Assembly (NCBI RefSeq): GCF_001653795.1
Contig: NZ_CP011514.1
Coordinates: forward strand, 3,242,279-3,306,278
Reading direction: 5' to 3'
DNA length: 64,000 bases
Source: Mitsuaria sp. 7
GTDB lineage: Bacteria; Pseudomonadota; Gammaproteobacteria; Burkholderiales; Burkholderiaceae_C
The position numbers were made by a program, and so were the translations under genes. The stretch's first letter is position 1. Each line of letters starts with the position of its first letter. Below, in pieces: positions 29,714 to 38,049 of the stretch. The notes beneath the pieces are model-generated. The model saw nothing but the letters and a program-made list of their open reading frames with translations. It was not told where the DNA came from and did not search any database.

Positions 29714-32128
29714 TCAGCCTCGCAGGCGCGCGCCGAGACTGTCGCCCAGCTGCGCCACCACCTTCGCCACCGCCTGCTCGATGCGTTCGTCGGTCAGCGT
29801 GTTCTCGTCATCGAGCAGCTCCAGGCGCACGGCCAGGCTGCGCTCGTTCGCCTTCAGCTCCGCCGTCGGTTGGGCCGGCTTGAAGACGTCGAACAGACGC
29901 GCAGAGCGTACCAGGGCTTCGCCGCTGGCTTCGATCGCCCGGATGAGGGAGGCATAGGTCACTTGCTCATTGACGATCAGCGCCAGATCGCGTTGCACCG
30001 CCTGCAGACGGGGCACGCCCTGACCCTGCGGCAACGTGCGCGTCAGCACCGCGTCCAGCGACAGCTCGAACAGGACCGGCGCGCTCGGCAATTCGTAGCC
30101 TTGTCGCCACTTCGGATGCAGCTCGCCGACGACGCCGATGTCCTCGCCGTCCAGCAGCACGCGGGCGCTGCGGCCCGGATGCAGCGCGGGATGTTCGGCG
30201 GCTTCGAAGCTCAGCACGCGCGGCGCGAACAACGCCTCGAGGTCGCCCTTCACGTCGAAGAAGTCGACGGCACGGTCCTTCTGCGCCCACTGCTGCTGAT
30301 CCGCGGGGCCCCAGGCCAGGCCGGCCAGGCGCATCGGTTGCGCGATGCCGGCGATCGTCGTGTCGCTTTCCTGCACCGACGCGTCGCGCAGGAACACGCG
30401 GCCGATCTCGAAGACGCGCACGCGCGGCGCCTTGCGCGCCAGGTTGTTGCGCAGCGCCTGGACCAGCGAGCCCATCAGCGAGGTGCGCATCACCGCCAGC
30501 GGCGCGGCGATCGGGTTCAGCAGCTGGATCGGATCCGTGTTGCCGGCGAGCTCCTGCTCCCAGCGCGCTTCGACGAAGCTGAAGTTGATCGTCTCGAAGT
30601 AGCCCTGGCCCGCCATCGCGTGACGCAGCGCGTGCGTCGCGCGGCGCGATTCCGAGCGCGCCTTGCCCACCACCGGCGCCAGCGGCGGCGTCGACGGCAG
30701 CCGGGCGTAGCCCAGCACGCGGATGACTTCCTCGATCAGGTCTTCCTCGATCTGGAGGTCGAAGCGGAAGGTCGGCGGCGTCACCGTGATCACGCCCGGC
30801 GCCGAGCTGAACGCCAGGCCCAGGCGCTTGAACACGCCTTCGCACTCGGCCTGCGTCACCGGCATGCCGATGACCTTGGCGGCGCGATCGACGCGCAACG
30901 CGACCGGCTTGCGCTCGGGCAGTTGCGTCGTCTGGTCGTCCATCGGGCCCGCCTCGCCGCCGCAGATCGACTGGATCAGTTGCGTGATGCGCTCGATGTG
31001 CTCGACGGTACCGGCCGGATCGACGCCGCGCTCGAAGCGGTGACCCGCGTCGGTCGAGAAGTTGAAGCGGCGCGAGCGCCCCATCACCGCCTTCGGCCAC
31101 CAGAACGCGGCTTCGACGTAGATGTTCTTCGTGTCGTCGGACACGGCGGTGGCGTCGCCGCCCATGATGCCGGCCAGCGACTCGACCTGCTCGCGATCGG
31201 CGATCACGCCGACGGTCGCGTCGACCTCGATCGTGTTGCCGTTCAGCAGCTTGAGCTGCTCACCCGGCCTGCCCCAGCGGACGATCAGTCCGTCGTGGAT
31301 CTTGTCGAGGTCGAAGATGTGCGACGGACGGCCCAGCTCGAACATCACGTAGTTCGAGATGTCCACCAGCGGCGACACCGAGCGCTGACCGCAACGGGCC
31401 AGGCGGTCGACCATCCACTGCGGGGTCTTCGCGGTCGTGTCGACGTTGCGGATCACGCGGCCGGAGAAACGGCCGCACAGGTCCGCAGCCTCGACACGCA
31501 CCGGCAGCTTCGAATCCGTGGCGACGGCGGCAGGCTTGATCTCGGGCGCGAGCAGCGGTGCGCCGGTCAGCGCGGCGACTTCGCGCGCGACGCCATAGAC
31601 GCTCAGTGCGTGCGCCAGGTTCGGCGTCAGCTTCAGCGTGAACAGCGTGTCATCGAGGTTCAGGTGCTTGCGGATGTCTTCGCCGACAGGCGCGTCGGCG
31701 GCCAGCTCCAGCAGACCGCCGTGGTCCTCCGCCAGCTTCAGCTCGCGGGCCGAGCACAGCATGCCGAAGCTCTCGACGCCGCGCAGCTTGCCCTTGCCGA
31801 TCTTGAACGGCTTGCCGTCCTCGCCCGGGGGCAGTTCGGCGCCGATGGTGGCCAGCGGCACACGGATGCCGACGCGCGCGTTCGGCGCGCCGCAGACGAT
31901 CTGCAGCAGCTCGGGCCCGCCGGCATTGACCTTGCAGACACGCAGGCGGTCGGCGTCCGGATGCTGGACGGCTTCGACGATCTCGGCCACGACGATGCCG
32001 TGGAACGGCGGCGCCACCGGGCGCAGCTCTTCCACTTCCAGGCCGGACATCGTCAGCAGCTCGGCCAGTTCTTTCGTGTTCAGCGCGGGGTTGCAGAAGG
32101 CCCGCAGCCAGGACTCAGGGAATTGCAT
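29714..32128 (-). CDS. pheT: Phenylalanine--tRNA ligase beta subunit
   Basis: Beta chain of the alpha2-beta2 enzyme that charges tRNA-Phe. At 804 residues it has the usual length and domain order: the N-terminal EMAP-like tRNA-binding domain (about 39-150, [19 protein letters not shown]), the B3/B4 editing domain (about 210-390), B5 (about 400-475), the catalytic-like core, and the C-terminal ferredoxin-like anticodon-binding domain (about 710-804, [15 protein letters not shown]). It lies 39 bp after pheS. Confidence 0.97.
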
Positions 32129-32167: not shown

Positions 32168-33205
32168 TTACTTGAACTGCGACAGGAAGCGCAGGTCGCC
32201 GTCGAAGAACAGGCGCAAGTCGCCGACGCCGTAGCGCAGCATCGCCAGGCGGTCGATGCCCGAGCCGAAGGCGAAGCCGATGTAGCGCTCGGGATCGAGG
32301 CCCATGTTGCGGATCACCTGCGGATGCACCTGGCCGGAGCCGGAGACTTCCAGCCAACGGCCCTTCAGCGGGCCGGAGCCGAACATCATGTCGATCTCGG
32401 CGCTGGGCTCGGTGAACGGGAAATAGCTCGGGCGGAAACGGATGTCCATGTCCGTCGTCTCGAAGAACTGCTGCATGAAGTTCACGTAGACGGACTTCAG
32501 GTCCTTGAAGCTGATGTTCTCGCCGACCCACAGCCCTTCGACCTGGTGGAACATCGGCGAATGTGTCGCATCGCTGTCCACGCGGTAGGTGCGGCCCGGC
32601 GCGATCACGCGGATCTCGGGCATCGGCTGGCCGGCGTCGATCAGCGCGCGATGCTTCTTGACGTGCTGCACCGCGTAGCGGATCTGCATCGGGCTGGTGT
32701 GCGTGCGCAAGACATGACCCCCTTCGATGTAGAAGGTGTCCTGCATCGAGCGCGCCGGGTGGTCCTTCGGCGTGTTCAGCGCGGAGAAGTTGAACCAGTC
32801 GTTCTCGATCTCCGGACCGTCGGCGACGTCGAAGCCCATCGAGCCGAAGATCGCCTCGATGCGTTCCATCGCGCGCGTGATCGGGTGCAGACCCCCGGTG
32901 CCGCGCTGGCGGCCGGGCAGCGTCACGTCCAGCGCCTCGGCCTTGAGCTGCTTGTCGAGCTCCGCGTCCGCCAGCGCCTGGCGGCGCGCGGTCAATGCCG
33001 CCTCGATGCCCTGCTTGAGCTGGTTGATCTGCGCGCCGCGGGTCTTCTTCTCCTCGACGGGCAGGCTGGCCATGCCCTTCATCAGCTCGGTGACCTGGCC
33101 GGTCTTGCCCAGGAAACGCGCCTTGGCGTTCTCCAGGTCGGCGGGAGTCGTGGCGGCGGCGAAGTCGCCGGTCGCCTGGTGCAGCAATTGATCGAGATCG
33201 TTCAT
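32168..33205 (-). CDS. pheS: Phenylalanine--tRNA ligase alpha subunit
   Basis: Catalytic chain of phenylalanyl-tRNA synthetase. The ATG at 33205 gives 345 residues. An N-terminal coiled coil (about 1-85) precedes the class II core. Visible motifs are [41 protein letters not shown] in motif 1, [14 protein letters not shown] in motif 2 and [14 protein letters not shown] in motif 3. It lies downstream of rplT, with about 196 bp between them that contain three hairpins, the last with a U-tract. Confidence 0.97.
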
Positions 33206-33401: not shown

Positions 33402-33758
33402 TCAAGCCAGAGCGGCCTTCACCTTGGCGAAGATGCTGGCGAAACCAGCAGGGTCGTTGACGGCGAGGTCGGCCAGGACCTTGCGGTCGATGTCGATCTC
33501 GGCCTTCTTCAGACCGGCCACGAACTTGCTGTAGCTCAGACCCAGGCCACGGCTTGCCGCGTTGATACGGGCAATCCACAGCTGGCGGAACACGCGCTTC
33601 TTGGCACGGCGGTCACGGTAGGCGTACTGGCCCGCCTTCATCACCGCCTGCTTGGCGATGCGGAAGACGTTCTTGCGACGACCACGGAAGCCCTTGGCCA
33701 GAGCCAGGACCTTCTTGTGACGAGCACGTGCGGTTACACCACGTTTGACGCGAGGCAT
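33402..33758 (-). CDS. rplT: 50S ribosomal protein L20
   Basis: Ribosomal protein needed early in large-subunit assembly and, in other bacteria, a translational repressor of its own operon. The 118 residues match the family: [18 protein letters not shown] at the start, [20 protein letters not shown], and [20 protein letters not shown] in the globular half. It follows rpmI by 26 bp. Confidence 0.98.
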
Positions 33759-33784: not shown

Positions 33785-33988
33785 TTACAGACCAGCGAAG
33801 GGCAGCATCGAAGCGATGTGGCCCATGTTGGTCTCATGCACGGTCGTGGCGCCGCGGAGGTGGCGCTTGTTCTTCGTGGTCTTCTTGGTCAGGATGTGGC
33901 GCTTGAACGCCTGACCGCGCTTGACGGTGCCACCCGGACGAACGCGAAAACGCTTTTTCGCGCTGCTCTTGGTCTTCATCTTGGGCAT
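33785..33988 (-). CDS. rpmI: 50S ribosomal protein L35
   Basis: A small basic ribosomal protein of 67 residues, with the family start [16 protein letters not shown] and the internal [20 protein letters not shown] segment. It lies between infC and rplT, as in most bacteria. Confidence 0.97.
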
Positions 33989-34154: not shown

Positions 34155-34700
34155 TCAACGCTTCTTTGGTGCGAGCACCATGATCATCTGGCGGCCTTCG
34201 AGCTTGGGCATGTGCTCGACCACGGCCACGTCGGACAGCTCGTCGCGGATGCGTTCCAGCATGCGCATGCCGATGTCCTGGTGGGTGATCTCGCGGCCCC
34301 GGTAGCGCAGCGTGACCTTGCCCTTGTCACCGTCCTCCGCGATGAAGCGGCGCAGGTTGCGCATCTTGATCTGGTAGTCGCCTTCGTCCGTGCCCGGACG
34401 GAACTTGACTTCCTTGACCTCGATGACCTTCTGCTTGGACTTGGCTTCCGCGGCGCGCTTCTGCTCCTGGTACTTGAACTTGCCGTAGTCCATCAACCGG
34501 CAGACCGGCGGGACTGCAGTGGCGGCAATTTCGACCAGATCGACGTCCAGGTCACCGGCCATCCGGAGCGCTTCCTGGATCGAGACGATGCCGATCGGCT
34601 CGTTCTCGGGGCCATTGAGACGGACTTCAGAAGCGATGATTTCGCGATTCAGGCGGTGCTTGCGCTCCGGAATCGCACGACGGTCAGCAAAAGTAGCGAT
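34155..34700 (-). CDS. infC: Translation initiation factor IF-3 (apparent ATC start)
   Basis: IF-3 keeps the 30S subunit free and proofreads start codons. The clear family sequence begins well upstream of the first ATG (34562): [23 protein letters not shown] and EALRMA. The best start is ATC at 34700, with AAGGT seven bases upstream, giving 181 residues (first residues Met-Ala-Thr-Phe-Ala-Asp). A rare start codon is a known feature of infC, because IF-3 rejects such codons and so represses itself. The C-terminal domain contains [20 protein letters not shown]. An ATT codon further in, in the RAIPERK segment, is a less likely start. Confidence 0.9.
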
Positions 34701-34769: not shown

Positions 34770-36695
34770 TCAGGCCTTGTCCGCGATGGCGGTCGAGAGC
34801 TTCGAAACGAAGTCCTCCAGCGACATCACGCCCAGATCCTGGTTGCCTCGGGCGCGCACTGCGACTGCGCCGTTCGCCTTTTCCTTGTCGCCGACGACGA
34901 GGATGAACGGCACCTTTTGCAGTGAATGCTCGCGGATTTTATACGTGATTTTCTCGTTGCGCAAATCTGCCTGAACCCTAACCCCTTGTTTTTGCAGCGA
35001 TTTCACAATGCTGGAAACGTAGTCCGATTGGGCGTCGGTGATATTGGCGACAACGACCTGCGTCGGAGCCAGCCAGACCGGCAGCGCGCCGGCGTGCTGC
35101 TCGATCAGGATCCCGATGAAACGCTCCAGGCTGCCGACGATCGCGCGGTGCAGCATCACGGGCGTGTGACGCTCGCCGTCCTCGCCGACGTACTCGGCGC
35201 CCAGGCGCGCTGGCATCGAGAAATCCACCTGCATCGTGCCGCACTGCCACTGGCGGCCGATGGCGTCCTTGAGCGTGTATTCGATCTTCGGACCGTAGAA
35301 GGCGCCATCGCCCGGGGCGATGATGAACTCCACGCCCGAGGCGCGCAGCGACTCCATCAGCGCGAACTCGGCCTTGTCCCACACCTCGTCCGAGCCGATG
35401 CGGGCCTCGGGGCGCGTCGCGACCTTGTAGATGATGTTGTCGAAGCCGAAGTCCTTGTAGACCTTCTGCAACAGCGCCGTGTACGCCACGCACTCGGCCA
35501 GGATCTGGTCTTCCGTGCAGAAGATGTGGCCGTCGTCCTGCGTGAACCCGCGCACGCGCATGATCCCGTGCAGGCCCCCCGTGGGCTCGTTGCGGTGGCA
35601 CTGGCCGAACTCGCCGAAGCGCAGCGGCAGGTCGCGGTAGCTCTTGATGCCGTGCTTGAAGATCAGGATGTGGCCGGGACAGTTCATCGGCTTGAGCGCG
35701 TAGTCGCGCTTCTCCGATTCCGTCGTGAACATGTTGTCGCGGTACTTGTCCCAGTGGCCCGTGGCCTCCCACAGCGTCTTGTCCAGCAGCTGCGGGCCCT
35801 TCACTTCCTGGTAGCCGTTGTCGCGGTACACGCGGCGCATGTACTGCTCGACCTCCTGCCAGACCGTCCAGCCCTTGGGATGCCAGAACACGACGCCCGG
35901 CGCGTGCTCGTCGATGTGGAACAGCTCCAGGTCCTTGCCCAGCTTGCGGTGGTCGCGCTTCTCCGCTTCCTCCAGCATGCGCAGGTAGTTCGCCAGGTCG
36001 TCCTTGGTCGCCCAGGCCGTGCCGTAGATGCGCTGCAGCTGCTCGTTGCGGTGGTCGCCGCGCCAGTAGGCGCCGGCCACCTTCATCAGCTTGAAGAACT
36101 TCAGCTTGCCCGTCGACGGCACGTGCGGGCCGCGGCACAAGTCGGTGAAGGCGCCCTCGGCGTACAGCGAGACGTCCTGGTCCGCCGGGATGCTGGCGAT
36201 GATCTCGGCCTTGTAGGCCTCGCCGATGCCCTTGAAGTACTCGACGGCTTCATCGCGCGGCAGCACCGAACGCGTGACCTTCTCGTCCTTCTTCGCGAGC
36301 TCGCCCATCTTGGCCTCGATCGCCGCCAGGTCGTCCGGCGTGAACGGGCGCTTGTACGAAAAGTCGTAATAGAAGCCGTTCTCGATGACCGGGCCGATCG
36401 TGACCTGCGCGTCGGGGAACAGCTCCTTGACCGCGTAGGCCAGCAAGTGGGCCGTCGAATGGCGGATCACATCCAGCCCGTCCGGATCCTTGTCCGTGAC
36501 GATGGCCAGCTGCGTGTCCTGGTCGATGAGGAAGCTGGTATCGACGACCTTGGCGTCATCGCCCGAGCCGACGCGGCCGGCGAGCGCCGCCTTCGCCAGG
36601 CCCGTGCCGATGGAGGCCGCGACTTCGGCGACGGTCACCGGCTGCGGGAACTCGCGCTTGGAGCCGTCGGGCAGTTGGATGGAGATGTTGGACAT
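34770..36695 (-). CDS. thrS: Threonine--tRNA ligase
   Basis: Class II synthetase that charges tRNA-Thr and edits Ser-tRNA. The ATG at 36695 gives 641 residues. Order of domains: TGS (residues 1-62), the editing domain with [17 protein letters not shown] and the later zinc-site CRGPH, then the catalytic core with [25 protein letters not shown] and motif 3 ([17 protein letters not shown]). The anticodon-binding domain (about 540-641) follows. An intrinsic terminator and a Thr-rich leader peptide lie just upstream, so expression is probably controlled by attenuation. Confidence 0.97.
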
Positions 36696-36707: not shown

Positions 36708-36745
36708 CAGAAAACAAAAAAGCGCGACCACGTGCCGCGCTTTTT
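36708..36745 (-). terminator. Intrinsic terminator (attenuator) in the thrS leader
   Basis: AAAAAGCGCG (36717-36726) pairs with CGCGCTTTTT (36736-36745). On the minus strand the U-tract TTTTTTGTTTTC follows and leads straight into the thrS ribosome binding site (CTGGAG). It stands between the leader peptide and the gene. An alternative pairing of upstream AGCGACC (36794-36800) with GGTCGC in the hairpin would break the terminator. Confidence 0.8.
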
Positions 36746-36801
36746 CTGGGGTGCTGACTTTTTCCGGACAGCTGATGAAAGACGTGACGAGCCGCGGTCG
36801 C

Positions 36802-36846
36802 TCAAACCTTCGCAGTGGAGGTGGTAGTCCGCGGTGTCATAACCAT
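36802..36846 (-). CDS. Thr-rich leader peptide of thrS
   Basis: A 14-codon reading frame, [14 protein letters not shown], with five Thr codons, three of them consecutive (ACT ACC ACC, then TCC ACT). The purine-rich GGGAAAGG lies four bases before the ATG and is a fair ribosome binding site. It is followed after about 55 bases by the intrinsic terminator and then thrS. This is the layout of classical ribosome-mediated attenuation: a ribosome stalled for lack of Thr-tRNA would favour the antiterminator. Confidence 0.7.
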
Positions 36847-36898
36847 GTCGCCTTTCCCGGTCCTTGTTGGAAAAAGAAAATGAGACGTCCAGTGTAGC

Positions 36899-37981
36899 TC
36901 AGAGCGCCTGGATGTCGAGGGTCGGACGGGCGCAGGCCTCGCGGAACTCGTCCCTCAGCCGCTCGCCTTCGCGCACGGCGCGCAGCCAGTCGCGGGCGCG
37001 GCCGGGGACGTCGTTCAGGTAGCGCTGGAAGTCGTTGCGATCGGGCAGCTTGCCGTTGGGCAAGGTCTTCACCCATTCGGGGTTGGGCGTCAGCAACACG
37101 ACGTTGTCGAGGAAGGCGCTGGTCCGATGCCGGTGCTTGAGCGCCTTGTCCAGCCAGCCCGGCACGACGCTGGCCTGGAAGTGCGGATACAGCGCGATGC
37201 CGTCGCCGACCATGGCCGCGTAGTTCAGATGCAGGTGGTAGTCGGTGATGCCGCCATCCCAGTACGCGCCGGCCGGGGCGCCTTCGATGTCGTGCACGGC
37301 CTGCAGCCAGAACGGGATCGAGCAGCTCGCCAGGATGCTGGGCTTGAGGTTGCCTGCGTCCAGGGGCACCTGCCGGCTGCGGTAGTCGGCGAGCGGCATC
37401 GGCAGCGGCGAGCGCTTGTCGGAGAAGACGACCCGTTCGAGCCAGGCGCCCATCGCGCGCCGCGACATCGCGTTGGCCGCGAACGCGCCGAGGTAGCCGA
37501 GCGGCGTGCGCAAGCGCCCTTCCCGCCCGAGCACGTGCTTGCCGCGCGAGGTGAACACATGCAGGCGGAACTGCGGATGCGACAACACCTCGGCCTCGCG
37601 GCCGCCGAAGATCTCGCCGAGCTTTCCGGCGAACGCGCGCGAGACCGTCGCGGCGGTCGGCCGCTTGCCGGGCGCGGACTCGTAGTCCTGATGCGCGTAA
37701 TCGTGGGCGAGGCGCTCGAACTCCGCGTTCGCCTGCGCGGCGTCGCGGGTCAGACAGGCGGTGGCCATGCGCCAGGCGCCGATGGAGGCGCCGAGCAGGT
37801 GCACCTCCTGGCCGCCCGACGGCAGGAACTCGCCGAAGAGATGCGCATCGAGCGCGCTGAGCACCAGCCCCTTCGGGCCGCCCGCGGCGCCGGGCACGAC
37901 GCGCACGTCGGCGGCGCGCAGGCCACGGCCGCGCAGTCGTTGGCGCGCACGTGGTCCGGCGAGGATCTGCAAGGCCTGCAT
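36899..37981 (-). CDS. Patatin-like phospholipase family protein
   Basis: A probable lipid acyl hydrolase of 360 residues with a Ser-Asp dyad. The oxyanion motif GGPKGLVL is near residue 34, the nucleophile elbow GASIGAW (G-x-S-x-G) near 65, and the Asp motif YWDGGITDYHL near 240. No signal peptide is visible, so it is probably cytoplasmic. ATG 37981 has AAAGGA 11 bases upstream; GTG 38020 would add 13 residues. It shares its strand with the thrS cluster but is separated by the thrS leader. Confidence 0.87.
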   Translation of the reverse strand: MQALQILAGPRARQRLRGRGLRAADVRVVPGAAGGPKGLVLSALDAHLFGEFLPSGGQEVHLLGASIGAWRMATACLTRDAAQANAEFERLAHDYAHQDYESAPGKRPTAATVSRAFAGKLGEIFGGREAEVLSHPQFRLHVFTSRGKHVLGREGRLRTPLGYLGAFAANAMSRRAMGAWLERVVFSDKRSPLPMPLADYRSRQVPLDAGNLKPSILASCSIPFWLQAVHDIEGAPAGAYWDGGITDYHLHLNYAAMVGDGIALYPHFQASVVPGWLDKALKHRHRTSAFLDNVVLLTPNPEWVKTLPNGKLPDRNDFQRYLNDVPGRARDWLRAVREGERLRDEFREACARPTLDIQAL

Positions 37982-38049
37982 CGGTCGGGTCGTCCTTTCA
38001 ACATCGGAGGCGCCCGACACGGCCGTTCAGCCGCTCCGTCCTGGAAGGA

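Follow-up and report, generated by a model that had tools for sequence, protein, structure and literature searches.

A conserved threonine-rich leader ORF and terminator ahead of thrS in Mitsuaria sp. 7 and its relatives suggest ribosome-mediated attenuation

In Mitsuaria sp. 7 and in 112 of 122 thrS loci sampled from its family, the gene for threonine–tRNA ligase is preceded by a short ORF rich in threonine codons, which the window shares with its relatives down to a near-invariant core around the start codon. We consider it probable, at roughly 84%, that a ribosome-mediated transcription attenuator responsive to charged tRNA-Thr controls thrS, perhaps with infC, rpmI, rplT and pheST behind it. 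Such an attenuator had been proposed in the original prediction, which was made from the letters of the window (the whole stretch of 64,000 nucleotides analysed here). Conservation of the leader, enrichment of threonine and the position of the competing RNA strand all support the proposal.

According to this model, a ribosome supplied with plentiful Thr-tRNA would reach the stop codon of the leader (36804-36802) and mask the RNA directly behind it, called region 2. With region 2 masked the terminator hairpin would form and transcription would end. When Thr-tRNA is short, the ribosome would stall at the Thr codons and occupy region 1 within the ORF, such that region 2 would be exposed. It could then pair with an arm or the loop of the terminator, and RNA polymerase would continue into thrS.

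Materials and methods

The family was represented by 122 thrS loci, consisting of 16 loci from the genus, the 26 best further ThrS matches and 80 loci hand-picked across genera, with some genera repeated, from the best ThrS matches listed. A further 80 loci from the order and 40 from the class were chosen likewise by hand. Leaders were searched with the third codon positions left free. The terminator and enrichment tests covered 119 of these family loci; from the order, 38 of the first 40 loci entered them, and from the class 38 of 40. Pairing energies and positions were evaluated for 108 family leaders. Leaders in the order were listed for 76 of the 80 loci; at the other four no thrS start was found. 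In the enrichment test no amino acid was named beforehand, and each comparison was paired against dinucleotide shuffles.

Results

Organization of the locus

On the minus strand of the window a candidate promoter, the leader ORF and the terminator are followed by thrS, infC, rpmI, rplT, pheS and pheT (Table 1). The real start of infC probably lies further upstream than listed, the profile match beginning at position 37. For the ORF upstream of the leader (36899-38020) no NCBIfam match was obtained at E 0.001. The nearest named relative found was Roseateles noduli HZ7, with a ThrS identity of 99%.

The candidate promoter would imply a transcript start at about 36884. Its TACACT element recurs at the same distance, give or take about 4 bases, in 10 of 15 genus loci. 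The remaining five comprise three with TATCAT and one with TACAAT, all at other distances, as well as one ambiguous locus.

Table 1. Positions of the leader elements and genes within the window, in the order of transcription.
Feature	Positions	Strand	Remark
Candidate sigma-70 promoter TCGACA-16-TACACT	36891..36918	-	1 found, mean of 0.1 in shuffles
Putative leader ribosome binding site region GACCGGGAAAGGCG	36849..36862	-	family consensus GAGAAAGGC
Near-invariant core GGTTATGACACCGCGGAC (GGTTATGACACCGCGRAC in relatives)	36827..36844	-	spans the leader start codon
Leader ORF, 12 residues, conserved start	36802..36840	-	ORF listing and comparison with relatives
Rare Thr codon ACA	36835-36837	-
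Region 1, CCGCGG within the ORF	36829..36834	-	potential pause hairpin with region 2
Rare Thr codon ACT	36826-36828	-
Region 2 GCGACCGCG, putative antiterminator strand	36793..36801	-	directly after the stop codon; from comparison
Intrinsic terminator hairpin	36716..36746	-	13 pairs, loop of 5; T-rich tail to 36711
Region 2 partner CGTGGTCGC	36724..36732	-	terminator loop and 3' arm; read from sequence
thrS SD CTGGAG	36710-36705	-	thrS start ATG at 36695
thrS, threonine--tRNA ligase	34770..36695	-	NCBIfam TIGR00418, 723.5 bits
infC (IF-3)	34155..34562	-	TIGR00168
rpmI (L35)	33785..33988	-	TIGR00001
rplT (L20)	33402..33758	-	TIGR01032
pheS	32168..33205	-	TIGR00468
pheT	29714..32128	-	TIGR00472

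The leader ORF and its threonine codons

A peptide of 14 residues had originally been read from 36846-36802 on the minus strand. The ORF itself was borne out, including its five Thr codons of which three are consecutive, but the conserved start is the one at 36840. Among the 112 related leaders this position carries ATG in 110 cases and GTG in 2. At the optional start six bases further up, 36846, ATG is found in 31 of the 112 and TTG in 12.

The family leaders begin with a constant MTPRT, after which Thr occupies 233 of 560 positions at codons 6–10 in frame, compared with 5 and 17 of 560 when the same stretch is read in the other two frames. All four Thr codons are used at codon 6. The varied codons together with the in-frame bias thus point to selection on threonine and not on a single DNA word. 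Frame signature, conserved start and the SD-like stretch further up suggest that the ORF is a genuine short leader with a ribosome binding site of its own.

Of the 20 amino acids, threonine was the most enriched in short ORFs before the terminator at the 119 family loci (3.02 versus 1.05 expected, z 23.3, followed by Met with z 10.0; relatedness of the sequences inflates these and all other z values and shuffle counts given here). In 38 loci from other families of the order it again came first with z 5.0, and Val was next with 4.6, tRNA-Val genes being located nearby. In both samples the enriched codons match the substrate of the enzyme encoded downstream. For 38 loci from elsewhere in the class, the same short-ORF test gave a z of 1.3 for Thr, which was not first.

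A leader of this kind might sense slowed translation in general, or might encode an arrest peptide MTPR, instead of reporting on the charging of Thr-tRNA. MTPRT is the constant part of the peptide, and in some of the family Thr codons thin out after it, with only 2 or 3 Thr in 26 of 112 leaders. We nevertheless regard this explanation as highly improbable, given that Thr remains more frequent than any other residue at codons 6 and 7, with codons that vary between leaders, and that some other families retain Thr runs but not MTP.

The terminator before thrS

The strong intrinsic terminator with a U-tract directly before the thrS ribosome binding site was confirmed. Its hairpin is 20 nt away from the thrS ATG, and no transcript started further up can reach the gene without crossing it. 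Like the window, which has this hairpin between leader ORF and gene, all 119 family loci carried a terminator-like hairpin before thrS, at a median of 25 nt ahead of the gene, as judged with a permissive finder that also scored 33 of the 38 loci from the order and 22 of the 38 from the class as positive. The original prediction had proposed to look in relatives for conserved Thr codons and terminator, and both were found. Within the window, a local search returned 3 terminator-like sites versus 1.5 expected, and the local fold z-score was -1.9. Taken by itself the local sequence is only modestly unusual, and the strength of the case comes from the comparison.

The leader motif was missing from 10 of the 122 family loci. 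Inspection by eye revealed that nine of these ten have kept a hairpin that is rich in GC and carries a T-run ahead of thrS (L015, L042, L053, L070, L093, L094, L110, L111 and L119; the exception is L067), which means that the hairpin survives without the leader. L119 contains a degraded version of the leader core. Hairpins at leaderless loci would be expected if the structure simply terminated transcription of the upstream gene, or had another role, and the Thr-rich ORF were incidental. A terminator placed this close to the start would, however, halt the own transcript of thrS, and the coding signature of the ORF as well as the enrichment of Thr hold across many loci. Threonine enrichment, frame signature and the strand position described next already disfavour the ordinary terminator, which we consider the most improbable of the alternatives weighed here.

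Pairing between leader and terminator

For ribosome-mediated attenuation, the strand competing with the terminator should be located where it is masked by a ribosome that has reached the stop codon. AGCGACC had been named as this strand. A competing pairing with the terminator is indeed available to it, but its location is 36802-36796, two bases further up than the 36794-36800 given at the time. By eye, the best pairing in the window joins region 2 and its partner in the terminator loop and 3' arm over 9 bp.

Among 108 family leaders, the best partner of the terminator 5' arm plus loop overlaps the segment from +39 to +56 relative to the start codon in 106 cases versus 65.2 expected. Since the ORF comprises 12 or 13 codons in 79 of the 108, this segment lies just past the stop. 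The other 29 ORFs have different lengths, so the stop codon is not always at the place that the model requires. The antiterminator strand furthermore overlaps the strand of the pause hairpin, which pairs back to the ORF start, in 105 of 108 leaders (63.9 expected).

Compared with shuffles the antiterminator pairing had a mean energy rank of 0.155 in the 108 leaders, where 0.5 is expected by chance, and the pause hairpin one of 0.244. Single loci attained a rank of 0.05 or below in 36 of 108 cases when the partner was the terminator 5' arm plus loop, in 12 of 108 for the whole terminator and in 21 of 108 for the pause hairpin. The pairing of the window itself was unremarkable, at ranks of 0.53 (5' arm plus loop) and 0.06 (whole terminator). 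In other families of the order the mean antiterminator rank was 0.236, with 13 of 34 loci at 0.05 or below; the pause hairpin was near chance outside the family (mean rank 0.449, n=34).

Co-variation between the antiterminator strand and the terminator arm was weak. Upon swapping arms among 104 distinct loci, the cognate pairing had an energy of -15.11 versus -14.67 kcal/mol, i.e. a mean cost of 0.44, and 38 of 10000 permutations were as good. The cognate arm surpassed the median non-cognate arm in 54 of 104 loci and the mean of distant ones in 45 of 104. RNAalifold, applied to 52 of the 112 leaders, yielded 4 consensus pairs and no compensatory change in the pause hairpin. Because the co-variation tests give little, the argument for the antiterminator rests on position and on the shuffles. 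From the sequence comparisons as a whole, a chance origin of the leader arrangement seems very unlikely.

Leaders outside the family

In other families of the order a leader containing Arg-Thr (CGA-AC(N) core, at least 2 Thr) was present in 34 of 76 loci, a count made without shuffle control, and every one of these 34 loci had a terminator-like hairpin. By the same CGA-AC(N) test no Arg-Thr leader ORF was seen in the other 42 of the 76. A looser listing gave an Arg-Thr ORF in 43 of 76 loci, some of them probably by chance. Some of the order-level leaders contain MTPRT; others differ, e.g. MFRTSTTTQS, MSFRTTTTGSLNLA and MPRTHTTTGHFSRRG.

One distant family of the class (f59, L329-L355) possesses a thrS leader of its own, GTGCGACATGAGCACTACC..., of the MSTTTAHR type. 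These leaders came to light through L285, one of four class loci with a Thr window. They have 6–8 codons and occur in 23 of 26 loci. ACT-ACC was found in 21 and a terminator-like hairpin likewise in 21, with 26 of the 27 loci used.

As a separate observation, in many other families of the order a tRNA-Val (GAC) gene is located upstream of the leader or of thrS, namely in 15 of 16 loci from a set chosen since most of its members showed a tRNA (L127, L133, L135, L139, L140, L142, L147, L149, L150, L151, L157, L161, L301, L308 and L313). At such loci tRNA-Val and leader may share a transcript.

A near-invariant core around the start codon

The leader start is embedded in an 18-nt core; among 298 family genomes 216 contain its exact sequence, as do 112 of 141 genera. 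For the reversed 18-mer, used as a control, there was no match among the matches listed. Among the leaders found with a partly overlapping search expression 103 of 112 have the exact core. The identity of 0.987 is partly built in, as the leader search expression fixes part of the core, whereas the exact-18-mer count is free of this effect. The core was also present in 58 of 80 named genomes, which had been selected by ThrS similarity and overlap in species with other sampled loci. Of 276 genomes sampled across the class, a shifted 18-mer of the core matched 3, which are the only members of the window's family in that sample. In the order sample the core occurs outside the family as well (f3, f7, f9, f34 and f46).

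Within the core even the third positions left free by the search are fixed, all 112 leaders having A as the third base of codon 2 and G as that of codon 3. ACA is used as codon 2 in 110 of the 112, and ACT as codon 5 in 101. Both are rare: in nine neighbouring genes with 191 Thr codons, ACA occurs twice and ACT three times. The use of rare codons for regulation could sharpen the sensor. Pairing of CCGCG with two partners accounts for part of the invariance of the core. Attenuation alone is insufficient to explain the invariance at wobble positions, and the fixed Pro and Arg codons as well as the four bases before the start call for more.

One candidate for this additional constraint is binding of ThrRS, or of another factor, to the core at the leader start (NGUUAUG). 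Such binding would block translation of the leader, and the RNA would sense enzyme level and tRNA charging at once. The triplet before UAUG, GGU in most family leaders and CGU in L123, L150 and L157, resembles the anticodon of tRNA-Thr, and ThrRS of E. coli binds an anticodon-like operator. The fixation of the wobble positions, moreover, goes beyond the need of a sensor of Thr codons. We still judge this hybrid control improbable: the triplet is not framed by a stem resembling an anticodon arm, the columns from -9 to -5 are variable, the triplet is often predicted to be paired, and it is missing in families with other Thr leaders. The same low probability applies to the wider idea that GGTTATGACACCGCGRAC constitutes a second sensor, an anticodon-like ThrRS site, by which one RNA would join feedback of the E. 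coli type with attenuation and set the whole thrS-infC-rpmI-rplT-pheST array.

Two further interpretations of the core were considered. Mimicry of an anticodon arm is retained only within the improbable second-sensor idea, there being no conserved stem around the triplet. A T-box was rejected. The likeness of the core to one (UGG..ACCGCG) is faint: U is found at -5 in only 70 of 112 leaders, and in L123, L150 and L157 C replaces the first G. With the Rfam library, which we take to contain the T-box model, there was no T-box match in the window, where only one tRNA passed the gathering threshold.

Discussion

If ribosome-mediated attenuation operates as proposed, thrS is apparently controlled by attenuation, unlike in E. 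coli, across much of a large order of bacteria and also, as a separate case, in one distant family of the class. A lack of threonine would then increase IF-3, L35, L20 and PheRS as well, provided that their genes share a transcript with thrS. The rare Thr codons at fixed places of the core (ACA at codon 2, ACT at codon 5) raise the question of which tRNA-Thr reads them and what else binds there.

In E. coli, thrS is a textbook case of enzyme feedback, in which the enzyme binds tRNA-like stem-loops of a translational operator in its mRNA. The gene controlled is the same as here, but the E. coli operator acts on translation and via enzyme binding. The Thr operon leader (RF00506) combines a Thr-rich leader with a terminator ahead of a biosynthesis operon. 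Against this Rfam model the window scored 14 bits with an E value of 4.5, compared with a gathering threshold of 55. Ribosome-mediated attenuation of synthetase genes is represented in E. coli by pheM-pheST. Attenuation of synthetase genes is thus already known, and new here is the Burkholderiales thrS case with its unusual core. The survey of attenuation in aminoacyl-tRNA synthetase operons by Lopatovskaya and co-workers (2010) may already include a thrS attenuator of Burkholderiales. The open literature, as far as its accessible text reaches, yielded no report of one (PMC2965389, PMC4833913, PMC8632094, PMC3766115, PMC8079986).

Several leader peptides of synthetase genes are described for Streptomyces lividans TK24 in the available part of the report, among them thrL, which precedes thrS and is proposed to control it (PMC8079986). 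This actinobacterial system resembles ours in that a leader peptide is assigned the control of thrS. It differs in its peptide, MKRVRPFLETTPGFVPAR, which contains 2 Thr, in being leaderless and, according to the authors in the same part of the text, in having no clear Rho-independent terminator (PMC8079986).

In Rhodobacterales, cysS is preceded by uORFC-8-2, for which the accessible portion of the source describes attenuation by a cognate leader (PMC8632094). Both pheM-pheST and uORFC-8-2-cysS share with the thrS locus the succession of a short ORF with cognate codons, a terminator with a U-run and the synthetase gene. The locus described here differs from both in that the amino acid is Thr and not Phe or Cys, in its occurrence in Burkholderiales, in the near-invariant core at the start codon and in the thrS-infC-rpmI-rplT-pheST array.
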